DNA of 64,000 nt from contig JAIYAT010000035.1 in NCBI GenBank assembly GCA_027488905.1, positions 434,001-498,000 on the forward strand, given 5' to 3'. This DNA is from Bacteroidota bacterium (GTDB lineage Bacteria; Bacteroidota; Bacteroidia; UKL13-3). This document shows, one piece after another, positions 3,880 through 54,172 of the stretch. The notes under the pieces were generated by a model. That model saw only the letters and a list, made by a program, of their open reading frames with translations. It was not told where the DNA came from and did no database searches. A program made the translations under genes and the position numbers. Within the stretch, counting starts at the first letter, position 1, and the number at the start of each line of letters is the position of its first letter.

Positions 3880-5271
3880 TTGAACCTAAGCCTCAGAAAT
3901 ATTAAGCTGAACAAATATAATAGTCTTCAAATTTTTCAGTTTCTGAGGTTTGGAAGCATTTTTACTATATCCATATTATTGGCCAAAATAATCTATGGTC
4001 GATTTACCTTTGGCTATGGTAATTACTTGTTAAGCAGGCATGAAATGCTCATGTTATTAAGTTCTTTTCTAACTTTTTTCTGGGTTTCTAGCATTTGCAA
4101 TACTTTAGTTCCTTTTTACCATAGCAGCGACGAAGACAAACAAAAAAGAATTTTATTTAATGCCTTCGCGGTTCTTACCATATTTAGTTTGTTTGCTGGG
4201 ATTATCACTGCAGTTTATGGAAACATTAAATACCCCAAGGATGCAGATTTGTTTCAAATGTTTGGGCTGGTTGTCTTTTTAAATACACCTACTTTCATAA
4301 CAGATTATATTTTCTATCTAAAAGGTAAATATAAATCACTCATTATTTGGGGAATTATTAGTTTTTCTTTGCATATCATTTTATTGTGTGTTCCGCTTTA
4401 CATGAAGCAAACCCTTAACCTAGCTGTAAATTTATTGGTTATTCTAGCTTTATTAAAATTTAACTATACCATTATTATTCTTATGAAGTATGCTAGCATT
4501 AGCTTCCATACAAGGTTAATACAAGAATTCATGGGAAAAGTTATGCCATTTATGTTTTCTATTTTGCTAGCAGGCAGCATGGATTATATCAATAGCTTTA
4601 TTGTAGAATACTATTATTCTGATACCGACTTCACCATTTTTAGATATGGTGCAAAAGAACTTCCAGTATTTTTAATCCTCGCAAATTCCTTAAGCAATAT
4701 TTATAGTGGTGAAATTGCTAATGCATTTAAGTCGAACCAACTCCAAGATGGTCTTAAAAGGTTAAAAGAAAGTTCTCGCAAACTCATGCGGTGGTTGTTT
4801 CCAGGGACCATACTCATGCTTTTTATAAGTGAGTACTTTTTTGAATTTGCCTATAACAAAGACTTGGTTGCAGGATATCGCATTTTTAATATTTACTTAC
4901 TTTTGATAGTAAGTAGAATGTTGTTTCCACAAACGGTAATAATGGGTTTGATGAAAAACCGCATCTTTTATTTAGTAAGCACCAATTACCTAATTTTAAA
5001 TGTTATTCTATCCTTTTGGTTCATCAGTGAAATAGGAATTGAAGGCATTGCTTATGCTACTGTAATAGCCTATACCGTAGAAAAGATAATGCTAGTGATT
5101 TATTGTAAAATGGAAGGAATAGACATTAGAAAATATACAGCAATTGGAGAATATTTAGTGTATGCTAGTTTAACCATTGGAGCCTTTTTTTTAAGCTTAC
5201 ATTACTCTTTTGCAGATTTGCTAAATAACCTTCAAACCTCGCTTACTTTAGCTTTCTCCATCCCAACCTAA
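3880..5271 (+). CDS. Polysaccharide flippase-like membrane protein (MATE/MOP superfamily)
   Basis: 463 residues with roughly 12-14 hydrophobic segments spread over the length, as in Wzx-type lipid-linked oligosaccharide flippases and related polysaccharide biosynthesis transporters. No short signature motif proves the substrate. The frame starts with TTG at 3880; the next in-frame ATG (about 4040) would remove the first membrane segments, so TTG is preferred. The start codon lies inside a GTTTTGAACC sequence (3877-3886), a one-mismatch copy of the dispersed decamer of this window. The last 29 bp overlap the convergent copper ATPase gene. Confidence 0.72.
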   Translation: MNLSLRNIKLNKYNSLQIFQFLRFGSIFTISILLAKIIYGRFTFGYGNYLLSRHEMLMLLSSFLTFFWVSSICNTLVPFYHSSDEDKQKRILFNAFAVLTIFSLFAGIITAVYGNIKYPKDADLFQMFGLVVFLNTPTFITDYIFYLKGKYKSLIIWGIISFSLHIILLCVPLYMKQTLNLAVNLLVILALLKFNYTIIILMKYASISFHTRLIQEFMGKVMPFMFSILLAGSMDYINSFIVEYYYSDTDFTIFRYGAKELPVFLILANSLSNIYSGEIANAFKSNQLQDGLKRLKESSRKLMRWLFPGTILMLFISEYFFEFAYNKDLVAGYRIFNIYLLLIVSRMLFPQTVIMGLMKNRIFYLVSTNYLILNVILSFWFISEIGIEGIAYATVIAYTVEKIMLVIYCKMEGIDIRKYTAIGEYLVYASLTIGAFFLSLHYSFADLLNNLQTSLTLAFSIPT

Positions 5272-7081
5272 GGGAATTTCCAATTACAATTACATCAGAA
5301 AAAGCCATTGATAGTGCGCCAATCATAGGATGCAGAAAACCTGCTGCTGCCAAAGGGATACACAAAATATTATAGAAAAATGCCCAAAACAAATTTTGCT
5401 TGATTGTGGTATAAGTCATTTTGCTTATTTGATGGGCCTCTTTTATGGCAAGTAAATCTGGTCGTGTAATCACTAAACTAGCAGCCTGAATGGCTATATC
5501 ACTTCCTTTAACAAAAGAAATACCTACATTTACTTTGCTCAAAGCTGGCGCATCATTTATGCCATCTCCCACCATGGCGGTGTTTTTTTCTTCAAAATAC
5601 TTTTCAATCCATTCAAGCTTTTGTGCTGGCAGCTGAGCAGCTTTCCATTGTAAAATCCCAAACTTTTTGGCCAAGCTGGCAACTTTGCTTTCTTTATCTC
5701 CACTAATAATTAACATGGGCAATTGAACAGATTCAAAGTATTCAGCCATTTCTTTTGCACCCTCCTTAATTTCATCTTCAATGTCCAAACCTGCAATAGG
5801 TGCGCCATCCATACTTAAAACCAAATCATAATTATACGTTTCAACTATATTTGGTTCAACCCGAAACATGGCCCAATTTGGTTTGCCAAAACGTATTTCC
5901 TTTCCTTCAAAAACACCTTTCATTCCCTGTCCCTTTTCTTCAGCAATTGAACTTAATTCAAGGTTTGGGTCAAACCAATTGCTCTGCTGCTGAACAAAAG
6001 AAGTGGCAATGGGATGAGCAGATTTTTGCTCTAAGGCAAACATCAAAGCTTTTATAAGTGACTCAGATAATTTTGGAGCTTTCAATTCAGAAAATACAAA
6101 TTTACCTGTAGTGAGTGTTCCTGTTTTATCAAATACTAACAGTTCTGATTTTGCAAAGTTCTCCAGCACATTTCCACCTTTAATTAAGATACCTCGTTTG
6201 GCAGCTTTTCCAATGCCAACCATAATGGCTGTTGGCGTGGCAAGTCCCATTGCACAAGGGCAAGAAATTACTAATACAGCAACCGCACGCAGCATACTTT
6301 GGGCTGAACCAATGTCTAACCAAAAATAGGAAACCAAAAAAGTTAACAAAGATATTCCTACAACCACCGGGACAAAAACAGCGCTAATTTTATCACCCAA
6401 TTGTTGAATATTTGGCTTATTAGATTGCGCCCTTTTTACCATTTCAATGATTTGGCTCAATACACTATTTTTAACTAAAGCTTTTACTTTAATTGAAATA
6501 TTTCCAGATTCTATAAGGGTTCCAGCACTTACTTTATCACCTATTTGTTTAAAAATTGGCAATGATTCTCCACTCAACATTTGTTCATTGAGTTCTGCGT
6601 TTCCTTCTACTATTTCGCCATCTAAAGGTATTAATTGTCCGGTTTGAACCAACACTGTATCGCCAATTTTAATATGGTCAACCAAGGTTTCCAACAGACT
6701 TCCATTGGCTTGTAATAAAAGGGCTGTTTTGGGTTGCAAATCATTGAGTGTTTGCAAGGCTTTGGTAGTTCTTTTTACTGCACGCTTTTCGAGCACATTA
6801 CCTGCTAAAACAAAAGTAAAGATGGAAGCACCAGTTTCGAAAAACAGATACTTATGAACTTCATGGGTGCCAGCAAAGGCTAGCGTTCCATAAATACTAT
6901 AAATCAATGCTGAGAATGCCCCTATAAATATTAGCACATCCATATTAGGGACGCCGCTTTTTAAACTTTGGTAAGCAGATTTACCAAAATACCATAAACC
7001 AATTGAATATACCGGTATACTTAAGGCAAGTTGAAAAAATGGATTATGCAATAAGGCCCAGCTCGAAACCATGTGGGCCAT
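5243..7081 (-). CDS. copA: Copper-translocating P1B-type ATPase, main body (needs -1 frameshift to join its HMA domain)
   Basis: From the ATG at 7081 the frame gives 612 residues holding the P1B ATPase core: actuator motif 'MLSGES', the membrane CPC metal site in 'ISCPCAMGLATPTA' (about residue 274), the phosphorylated aspartate in 'DKTGTLT' (about 317), the HP motif in 'SAHPIA' (about 355) and 'GDGINDAPAL' (about 503). It exports Cu(I) across the inner membrane. The frame is open 19 codons further upstream to an A10 run, reading FLGSLEAKLIFSLIFTIPL. That is the expected beginning of the first CopA helix, so the ATG at 7081 lies inside that helix and is unlikely to be the true start. A -1 shift on A10 joins it to the HMA frame, giving about 712 residues, the normal CopA length. 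Confidence 0.9.
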   Translation of the reverse strand: MAHMVSSWALLHNPFFQLALSIPVYSIGLWYFGKSAYQSLKSGVPNMDVLIFIGAFSALIYSIYGTLAFAGTHEVHKYLFFETGASIFTFVLAGNVLEKRAVKRTTKALQTLNDLQPKTALLLQANGSLLETLVDHIKIGDTVLVQTGQLIPLDGEIVEGNAELNEQMLSGESLPIFKQIGDKVSAGTLIESGNISIKVKALVKNSVLSQIIEMVKRAQSNKPNIQQLGDKISAVFVPVVVGISLLTFLVSYFWLDIGSAQSMLRAVAVLVISCPCAMGLATPTAIMVGIGKAAKRGILIKGGNVLENFAKSELLVFDKTGTLTTGKFVFSELKAPKLSESLIKALMFALEQKSAHPIATSFVQQQSNWFDPNLELSSIAEEKGQGMKGVFEGKEIRFGKPNWAMFRVEPNIVETYNYDLVLSMDGAPIAGLDIEDEIKEGAKEMAEYFESVQLPMLIISGDKESKVASLAKKFGILQWKAAQLPAQKLEWIEKYFEEKNTAMVGDGINDAPALSKVNVGISFVKGSDIAIQAASLVITRPDLLAIKEAHQISKMTYTTIKQNLFWAFFYNILCIPLAAAGFLHPMIGALSMAFSDVIVIGNSLRLGWRKLK

Positions 7082-7131
7082 AAGTGGGATTGTGAAAATG
7101 AGGCTAAAAATTAATTTGGCCTCGAGGCTGC

Positions 7132-7380
7132 CTAAGAATTTTTTTTTTCTTCTTTTACCTCGTTTTTCATTGAAACAGAATATCCTAAATCTTCAATGCT
7201 TTCTGCAATTTCTGTTAAAGGTTTATTAGGAATATTTTCGAATCTTACCTCGCCTGTAGCAAAGTTAACGTCTATTTGTCCAAGCCCTTGCTTCTCTAGA
7301 CGTTTGCGAACACCCATGGCGCAATTGCTGCAACTCATGCCTTCAACTAAAAGCTCTGATAACTCCGTTTGTGAATTCAT
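7132..7380 (-). CDS. Heavy-metal-associated (HMA) domain, CopZ-like chaperone / CopA N-terminus
   Basis: 82 residues forming one ferredoxin-like HMA domain with the Cu(I) site 'GMSCSNC' (residues 14-20) and a charged tail 'KNEVKEEKKNS'. It ends at a TAG three codons after the zero-frame reading of the A10 run at 7139-7148. Read alone it is a soluble copper chaperone of CopZ size. Read with a -1 slip it is the N-terminal metal-binding domain of the downstream ATPase. In E. coli, copA is known to make both products by programmed -1 frameshifting. A sequencing error in A10 or a genuine separate-gene arrangement are the alternatives. Confidence 0.85.
   Translation of the reverse strand: MNSQTELSELLVEGMSCSNCAMGVRKRLEKQGLGQIDVNFATGEVRFENIPNKPLTEIAESIEDLGYSVSMKNEVKEEKKNS
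7139..7148 (-). promoter_or_regulatory. A10 slippery run at the HMA/ATPase frame junction
   Basis: On the coding strand the sequence is G-A10-TTC. The HMA frame reads GAA AAA AAA AAT TCT TAG. The ATPase frame reads AAA AAA AAA TTC TTA. Backing up one base after an AAA codon moves the ribosome from the first to the second. Ten As also allow RNA polymerase slippage (one A gained or two lost). Confidence 0.7.
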
Positions 7381-53218: not shown

Positions 53219-54172
53219 TCGAATATTTCTACCTGTTTTTAACTTAGTTGTGGTTTTTATGCCATTGAGCTTACTCAACTTTTTTGCACTAAGGCCATAG
53301 CGTTTGGCTATTTTAACGATGGTATCGCCTTTTCTAGCCTTAACATACTTAGGAACTTTCTTAGCCTTTTGCGCCTTTAGCTTAGCTGATTGTACTTCGT
53401 ATAAATGTTTAAAACATCCTTTATCTACCTGAAAAGTATCTGCTAAAAGAGAGCCGCTTGGAAAATGAATGATGGTAGCTGGGTCTATTTTTTCGCCTTG
53501 AAACCTAACTTCAAAATGTAAGTGTGGGCCAGTTGACCTGCCTGTAGAACCTGCTAAACCAATGATGTTTCCTCCCTTAACAGGCTGACCAGGATAACAT
53601 AGCAATTGAGAAAAATGCGCATATAAAGTTTCTAACCCATTGTTATGCCTAATGAGCACCACATAGCCATAATCTGCGCTGCGCTTGGCTATGCGCACCA
53701 CTCCTTCAAAAGCTGCATACACAGGGTCGCCAACCTCCATACGAATGTCGGTACCAAAATGAAATTTTTGCCTCCTACCCCAGCGCCTAAAACCAAAATT
53801 AGAAGTTACATCACCAATTGCGGGTGGATGGAAAGAGCAATCTTCATAACCAGAAAGCACTAAGTTAATAGTGTCTTCCATAGTTTTTAAATCAACCTTA
53901 TAAGGGTTTATAGTAATGGTATCCCAACCCAAATAAAAACCTCTGGCAGGGGCATACGTGGTGTCAAACCTAAAGTTTCGAGGCCTTATAAAATCCCAAT
54001 AATGGTCGTTTTCAGAATAAACAATGCTGTCATACTCGTTAGACTCTTCTTCTCCTTCCTCTTCTTCAACGCCATCTTCAAAAAATTCAGTTGAATCTGG
54101 ACCAATTATTACTTGCCCATTTGCCTGATGAAAACCTACCCATAAAAAAAAACCTATAATTAATTTCTTCAA
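53210..54172 (-). CDS. Secreted M23 endopeptidase with LysM domain
   Basis: 320 residues. A signal peptide (to 'HQANGQ') precedes a very acidic stretch, then a LytM/M23 domain (about 130-235) with the zinc ligands in 'FHFGTDIR', 'LETLYAHFSQL' and 'GPHLHFEV', and a C-terminal LysM (about 275-318: 'YVKARKGDTIVKIAKRYGLSAKKLSKLNG'). It should cut peptidoglycan cross-links or stems while bound to the wall. It follows ribF by 17 bp on the same strand, so it is probably co-transcribed with it. Confidence 0.94.
   Translation of the reverse strand: MKKLIIGFFLWVGFHQANGQVIIGPDSTEFFEDGVEEEEGEEESNEYDSIVYSENDHYWDFIRPRNFRFDTTYAPARGFYLGWDTITINPYKVDLKTMEDTINLVLSGYEDCSFHPPAIGDVTSNFGFRRWGRRQKFHFGTDIRMEVGDPVYAAFEGVVRIAKRSADYGYVVLIRHNNGLETLYAHFSQLLCYPGQPVKGGNIIGLAGSTGRSTGPHLHFEVRFQGEKIDPATIIHFPSGSLLADTFQVDKGCFKHLYEVQSAKLKAQKAKKVPKYVKARKGDTIVKIAKRYGLSAKKLSKLNGIKTTTKLKTGRNIRTR

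Follow-up and report, generated by a model that had tools for sequence, protein, structure and literature searches.

A copA gene split at a conserved run of ten adenines in Bacteroidota and its probable expression by programmed slippage

Introduction

How does a bacterium make a copper pump when the pump part of the gene has no start codon of its own? The question is raised by the copA locus in a 64,000-nucleotide stretch of DNA (hereafter the window) from a Bacteroidota bacterium of the lineage UKL13-3 (assembly GCA_027488905.1, contig JAIYAT010000035.1, positions 434,001 to 498,000), where the copper-binding HMA part and the ATPase part of copA lie in two different frames that meet at a run of ten adenines (A10). 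A preliminary description of the window proposed that a programmed −1 frameshift at this run makes both a CopZ-like chaperone and the full CopA pump. Here, we confirm that the split of copA at the A10 run is real, and argue that one copA gene would be expressed via a programmed slip at the bare A10 between the HMA domain and the membrane part. That the gene is expressed by programmed slippage of one kind or the other, by polymerase or by ribosome, we regard as very probable; comparison of the sequences suggests that the slippage is probably mainly transcriptional, by RNA polymerase.

Results

The HMA frame (7132..7380, minus strand), taken as the zero frame, encodes 82 residues that end in EEKKNS, and its open reading frame (ORF) contains the copper-binding motif GMSCSNC (CxxC) at 7321..7341 (minus strand). 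At the joint the frame reads GAA AAA AAA AAT TCT TAG, in the sequence context G-A10-TTC. The A10 run lies at 7139..7148 (minus strand, T10 on the plus strand) and contains an in-frame A_AAA_AAA (7147-7141), and the TAG stop (7132..7134, minus strand) ends 7 nt past the run. The copper ATPase is readable only in the −1 frame relative to the HMA frame; on the minus strand at 5243..7081 it has 612 residues counted from an internal ATG, with the CPC, DKTGT, HP and GDGxND motifs. Its frame stays open back across the A10 run for a total of 649 codons, and the 19 codons between the run and the internal ATG (7082..7138, minus strand) encode the start of the first membrane helix without a start codon. 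The ORFs 7380-7132 and 7081-5243 therefore lie as the preliminary description had them. A −1 slip or one added A at the joint gives EKKK-FLGSLEAKLIFSLIFTIPL followed by the ATPase, and the joined product is 80 + K + 19 + 612 = 712 residues by arithmetic, the length that had been estimated from a single slip.

We compared this junction among related genomes. The window's genus comprises 19 genomes, 17 of them with a readable copA junction; of the other two, one has a contig that begins inside the gene (G017) and one has no orthologue found (G018). The split is in the same register in all 17 junctions, 16 with A10 and one with A11 (L022), where the run is longer because the base following it is an A, without any shift of register or stop position. 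Measured from the end of A10 to the end of the HMA stop, the distance is 7 nt in 15 of the 17 and 28 nt in L012; in L022 the stop has the same position as in those 15. Outside this genus, g8 is represented by two species (G025, G036), and both have the identical split (2/2). The gene is also split in G139 of another family, in which frame length marks G172, G232 and G100 as fused, G203 being fragmentary, and in two genera of a third family, G324 (A9) and G480 (A10); in that family no other of 70 genomes had a close orthologue among the matches listed.

The split register is thus kept in 22 of 22 genomes read, with runs of A9 to A11, and A10 with an HMA stop ending 7 nt later is found in 19 of the 22 junctions, the exceptions being L012 (A10), L022 (A11) and L232 (A9, stop 6 nt later). 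No junction is fused in frame at the run (0/22). The preliminary description, which left the conservation of the run and of the out-of-frame stop to be sought in relatives, had named an A11 or A8 giving a simple in-frame fusion as the sign of an error; both features are conserved, and the one A11 keeps the split register. Within the genus the ATPases are as low as 57% identical to the query, and the bases directly upstream of the run are otherwise unconserved in the genus alignment. The same kind of junction occurs in six named records, all of them metagenome-assembled genomes (MAGs) of uncultured Bacteroidota. A miscounted run is excluded because 22 genomes cannot share one miscount, and a pseudogene is ruled out by the same register and intact frames in these 22 genomes.

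That the ATPase needs the slip came from two observations, the lack of a start codon before the first helix and selection on the codons next to the run. In 20 of 21 loci (L236 is outside this set) the ATPase frame lacks ATG, GTG and TTG between its upstream stop and a point 48 nt beyond the run, so that a start of the ATPase's own, which the preliminary description would have taken as favouring two genes, is absent before the first helix in these relatives; the one locus with a start codon, L232, has a TTG 35 nt past the run. The ATG at 7081 lies inside the first helix and is missing in 10 of the 17 genus members. Between genus pairs, the ratio of nonsynonymous to synonymous differences (pN/pS) over codons 2-19 downstream of the run is 0.28, although the synonymous differences are close to saturation; two control stretches of the ATPase have 0.20 and 0.65. 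Judged by these ratios, the codons adjoining the run in the ATPase frame are under purifying selection, in keeping with the earlier reading of the 19 codons as the start of the first helix. Absence of the ATG in 10/17, its position in the helix and purifying selection upstream of it rule out a separate ATPase start at 7081.

A run of this length is rare in such genes. Apart from the run itself, the 17 genus ATPase frames (32,187 nt) contain no A-run longer than 8, a length seen nine times. The linkers of 64 fused homologues, taken as the 120 nt that precede the first helix, likewise have none above 8, a length found once; other homologues, mostly more distant (L088-L115 and some more, L056 among them), are outside this set. 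Lysine codons in the linker of fused homologues are AAA 606 times and AAG 207 times, a preference that would not alone hold a run of fixed length. The window's 3.55-Mb genome has nine A10 runs, and the 19 genus genomes have 4 to 38. The fixed run at the joint is more than chance.

Long A-runs were also seen inside other frames of the window genome. One A10 lies in frame near position 1501 of L162 (C2:161517), around codon 389 in a frame of 798 codons that by eye resembles a glycosyltransferase, and another near position 1479 of L163 (C15:35417), around codon 32 in a frame of 201 codons, shortly after a signal-peptide-like start. In the window itself, an A9 at 54144-54152 (T9 in a minus-strand frame) falls around codon 26 in a frame of 338 codons, near an apparent signal peptide.

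By model and motifs, the ATPase part is assigned to the P1B copper ATPases of the CopA type. It scores 490.7 bits against TIGR01511, the curated copper-ATPase model (cut-off 397); CPC and DKTGT are present in 22/22 split ATPase parts, and HP and GDGxND in 21/22 (L171 is cut). It also exceeds the cut-off of the cadmium model TIGR01512 (385.5 against 313.5 bits) and misses that of the E. coli CopA equivalog NF007952 (408 against 1316 bits). The HMA part matches PF00403 with 41.8 bits (cut-off 24.8), and GMxCxxC is found in 21/21 complete HMA parts. As it reaches the cut-off of no curated CopZ model (the best being NF033795, 39.6 against 91 bits), we name it CopZ-like only. With CopZ chaperones such as that of B. 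subtilis (PDB: 1k0v, 2qif) it shares, by sequence, the HMA fold, the CxxC motif and a length of about 70-80 residues; those chaperones come from a separate gene, whereas the HMA product here comes from copA and stays under the curated CopZ cut-offs. By analogy with E. coli, the free HMA protein may serve as a copper chaperone. There are four HMA matches in the window genome, including the split gene, an 825-residue ATPase and a 135-residue frame. The 135-codon frame (L233, C23:188797-188955) has a signal-peptide-like start, so its product is probably exported and not a cytosolic CopZ.

To place the split among copA genes at large, frame lengths were compared across the order, class and phylum. 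Other genera of the order (g7, g9, g13, g12, g3, g4) have full-length orthologue frames of 700 to 734 residues, that is, fused ones. In a class survey of 395 genomes, nearly all full-length matches among those listed are fused, and the full-length matches listed with a frame below about 660 residues are five genus members, G139 and G324; in a phylum survey of 392 genomes, the window's own frame is the only one below about 660 residues among the matches listed. Other short frames are contig ends or partial matches (G146, G254, G040), and in G118 a stop is located inside the ATPase. On an ATPase tree of 54 sequences, 21 of them split (G480 not included), built by a quick method, the split/fused label needs four changes, which are forced by well-supported branches; L232 is on a long branch. 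Forcing genus g1 and genus g8 together was rejected, with a log-likelihood 73 lower and a p of about 6e-52 in the approximately unbiased (AU) test, which used 19 rows and a group picked after inspecting the tree. The tree indicates that the split copA is derived and recurrent, in four lineages; the four changes could stand for four gains, or for a smaller number of gains plus losses. Every split found sits at the same inter-domain linker, and splits elsewhere would be less visible because the survey was aimed at frames interrupted close to where the membrane part begins. One candidate driver of the split is the loss of a separate copZ.

A long A-run is also found in another gene of the same order, dnaX. 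In a search of 62 genomes of the order, an A10-A12 run is present in dnaX in 30 of 30 loci read (L169, C32:592978-594702 of the window genome, and L202-L231), which are related and do not count as 30 independent cases. The run starts at codon position 1 in 25 loci, position 3 in four and position 2 in one. Members of the window's genus encode tau in the zero frame, and one more A puts a stop no further than one codon away. Eight loci of g7, g6 and g5 show the reverse: their zero frame stops at the run (gamma), and tau becomes readable with one A added. The default product has thus changed inside a single family. In 26 of the 30 loci a stop also comes within two codons in the third frame, against a background of 0.20 in the same genes, as expected if slippage runs both ways. 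The longest run, A12, belongs to dnaX of G018 (L218), the genome in which no copA orthologue was found and which has the most A10 runs (38) of the 19 genomes.

Finally, no stimulatory element was found at the copA joint downstream, upstream or by consensus, in line with the earlier suggestion that a bare homopolymer is the signal. The fold tests cover structures other than pseudoknots within about 85 nt; a stimulator of this kind usually, though not always, accompanies −1 ribosomal frameshifting. Folding downstream of the run does not exceed a synonymous-codon null (mean z −0.35, n=17, p 0.16) and does not differ from 16 fused controls (mean z 0.01, rank test p 0.44). Upstream folding shows no excess (mean z −0.09, n=16), RNAalifold gave no consensus structure at the joint, and Shine-Dalgarno-like words upstream of the run are present in 3/17.

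Discussion

We propose that the unslipped A10 message would be translated to the nearby TAG and give the 82-residue HMA protein, which could act in the cytosol as a copper chaperone of the CopZ-like kind. Addition of one A by RNA polymerase (A11), or the loss of two, would bring the two frames together, and the 712-residue CopA pump would be made; both the HMA protein and the pump presumably accumulate. A conserved homopolymer of at least nine at the frame joint, used as a criterion for transcriptional slippage, is found in 22/22 genomes, and ten A's are kept though a ribosomal heptamer needs only seven. The dnaX genes of the order, with their long A-runs in more than one codon phase and a third frame that mostly closes early, also speak for the polymerase. 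The proposal of a programmed −1 frameshift in the preliminary description stands as a programmed slip, and its agent may be the polymerase rather than the ribosome.

Several observations weigh against the polymerase. They would fit ribosomal −1 frameshifting at A_AAA_AAA without a strong stimulator, which would make CopA, leave the HMA protein to the zero frame and so yield the same two products; we consider this the main alternative, possible but unlikely. A usable heptamer of the X_XXY_YYZ type, A_AAA_AAA, is in frame within every copA run, and the third frame of copA closes in 3 to 11 codons, which is not unusually fast. In some species local hairpins 10-20 nt downstream stand out against dinucleotide shuffles, with z of −2.8 (L010), −2.3 (L018) and −2.9 (L028), and one candidate pair column varies as A-U in 7, G-C in 5 and G-U in 2 of 17 sequences. 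However, the candidate stem is patchy, pairing in 7 to 15 of the 17 sequences per column, and a stimulatory hairpin, promising in single species, is not supported over the genus, whose mean does not differ from zero against synonymous-codon shuffles or from fused controls. The lack of a consensus structure in RNAalifold, the few Shine-Dalgarno-like words and the maintenance of ten A's where seven are enough also speak against the ribosome as the main agent.

The direction of the shift bears on the same choice. In copA it is constant in 22 of 22 genomes. A bias of RNA polymerase towards adding A's could give such a constant direction. Constant direction is taken as a sign of ribosomal frameshifting in PMC3711429, and the freedom of direction to vary, which that article uses for transcriptional slippage as one paper's criterion and not a definition, is not seen in copA; for this reason we describe copA as working like programmed transcriptional realignment (PTR), not as PTR. 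Ribosomes are further described as sliding on consecutive AAA codons (PMC4363877), and E. coli copA as using −1 ribosomal frameshifting (PMC5009743, PMC9548414).

It is improbable that the split is a tolerated defect, a neutral frameshift rescued by slippage with the HMA fragment as a functionless by-product. Homopolymer frameshifts rescued by slippage, called 'pseudo pseudogenes', are described in other bacteria (PMC1088944), but here the split is kept across a genus whose ATPases differ down to 57% identity, without reversion to an in-frame fusion (17/17); the HMA end and the stop are kept, and the same linker was reached independently. More improbable still is phase variation, in which changes of run length in the DNA would toggle the pump as proposed for the Rhodobacter copA tracts: the C10 of R. 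capsulatus copA, at the same inter-domain point, does suffer indels (PMC5829832), but all 22 genomes, each represented by one sequence, are in the split register and none is joined. Two genes, suggested by the 612-residue ORF that begins with ATG at 7081, or a miscounted run, can be dismissed, given that this ATG is missing in 10/17 and lies in a helix preceded by selected codons, and that six named MAG records have the same junction type and a single miscount could not be common to 22 genomes.

In E. coli copA the slip site is not a homopolymer and is accompanied by a pseudoknot, whereas the signal here is a bare A10 with no structure found. The short E. coli product was reportedly traced to −1 ribosomal frameshifting by Meydan and co-workers in 2017. 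In both cases one gene would give an HMA chaperone and a pump through a −1 change after the HMA domain, and as a functional precedent the parallel drawn in the preliminary description stands. The logic is inverted, however: in E. coli the zero frame yields the full pump and the shift yields the short product (PMC5009743, PMC9548414), while here the zero frame stops behind the HMA domain, which makes the short protein the unshifted one. R. capsulatus copA also has a ten-base homopolymer between the HMA domain and the first helix, but it is C10, is in frame in the wild type and is altered by DNA indels in suppressor mutants, which leave an HMA-only product proposed to be a chaperone (PMC5829832). 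There is also a likeness to dnaX: a two-ORF dnaX with ten A's is attributed to transcriptional realignment (PMC3711429), and the A9 run of Thermus thermophilus dnaX is a case of slippage (PMC1088944). Shared with both are at least nine A's, a near stop and, on the reading proposed for copA, a short product from one message length and a long one from another; both differ from copA in gene and purpose, and for Thermus transcript heterogeneity was demonstrated. Among titles in the open literature, a scope outside which most subscription papers lie, we found none on a slip-split copA in these bacteria.

Taken further, polymerase slippage would set the chaperone-to-pump ratio, in an order that uses the same type of run in dnaX, and the design would have been reached at least four times at the same point; we offer this combined picture tentatively. 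If it is true, slip frequency could be a copper- or growth-responsive control, the making of chaperone and pump from one gene would not be confined to E. coli and would have been reached repeatedly, and the simplest slip signal would suffice, with the default product reversed. The locus makes testable both the need for a free HMA protein beside the pump and the use of transcription slippage as a maintained expression device. We would like to point out that such genes resemble two genes or pseudogenes, which calls for care in annotation. The titles of the six MAG records, among which are a pond and sample-coded series, suggest that the bacteria carrying this junction live in fresh water.

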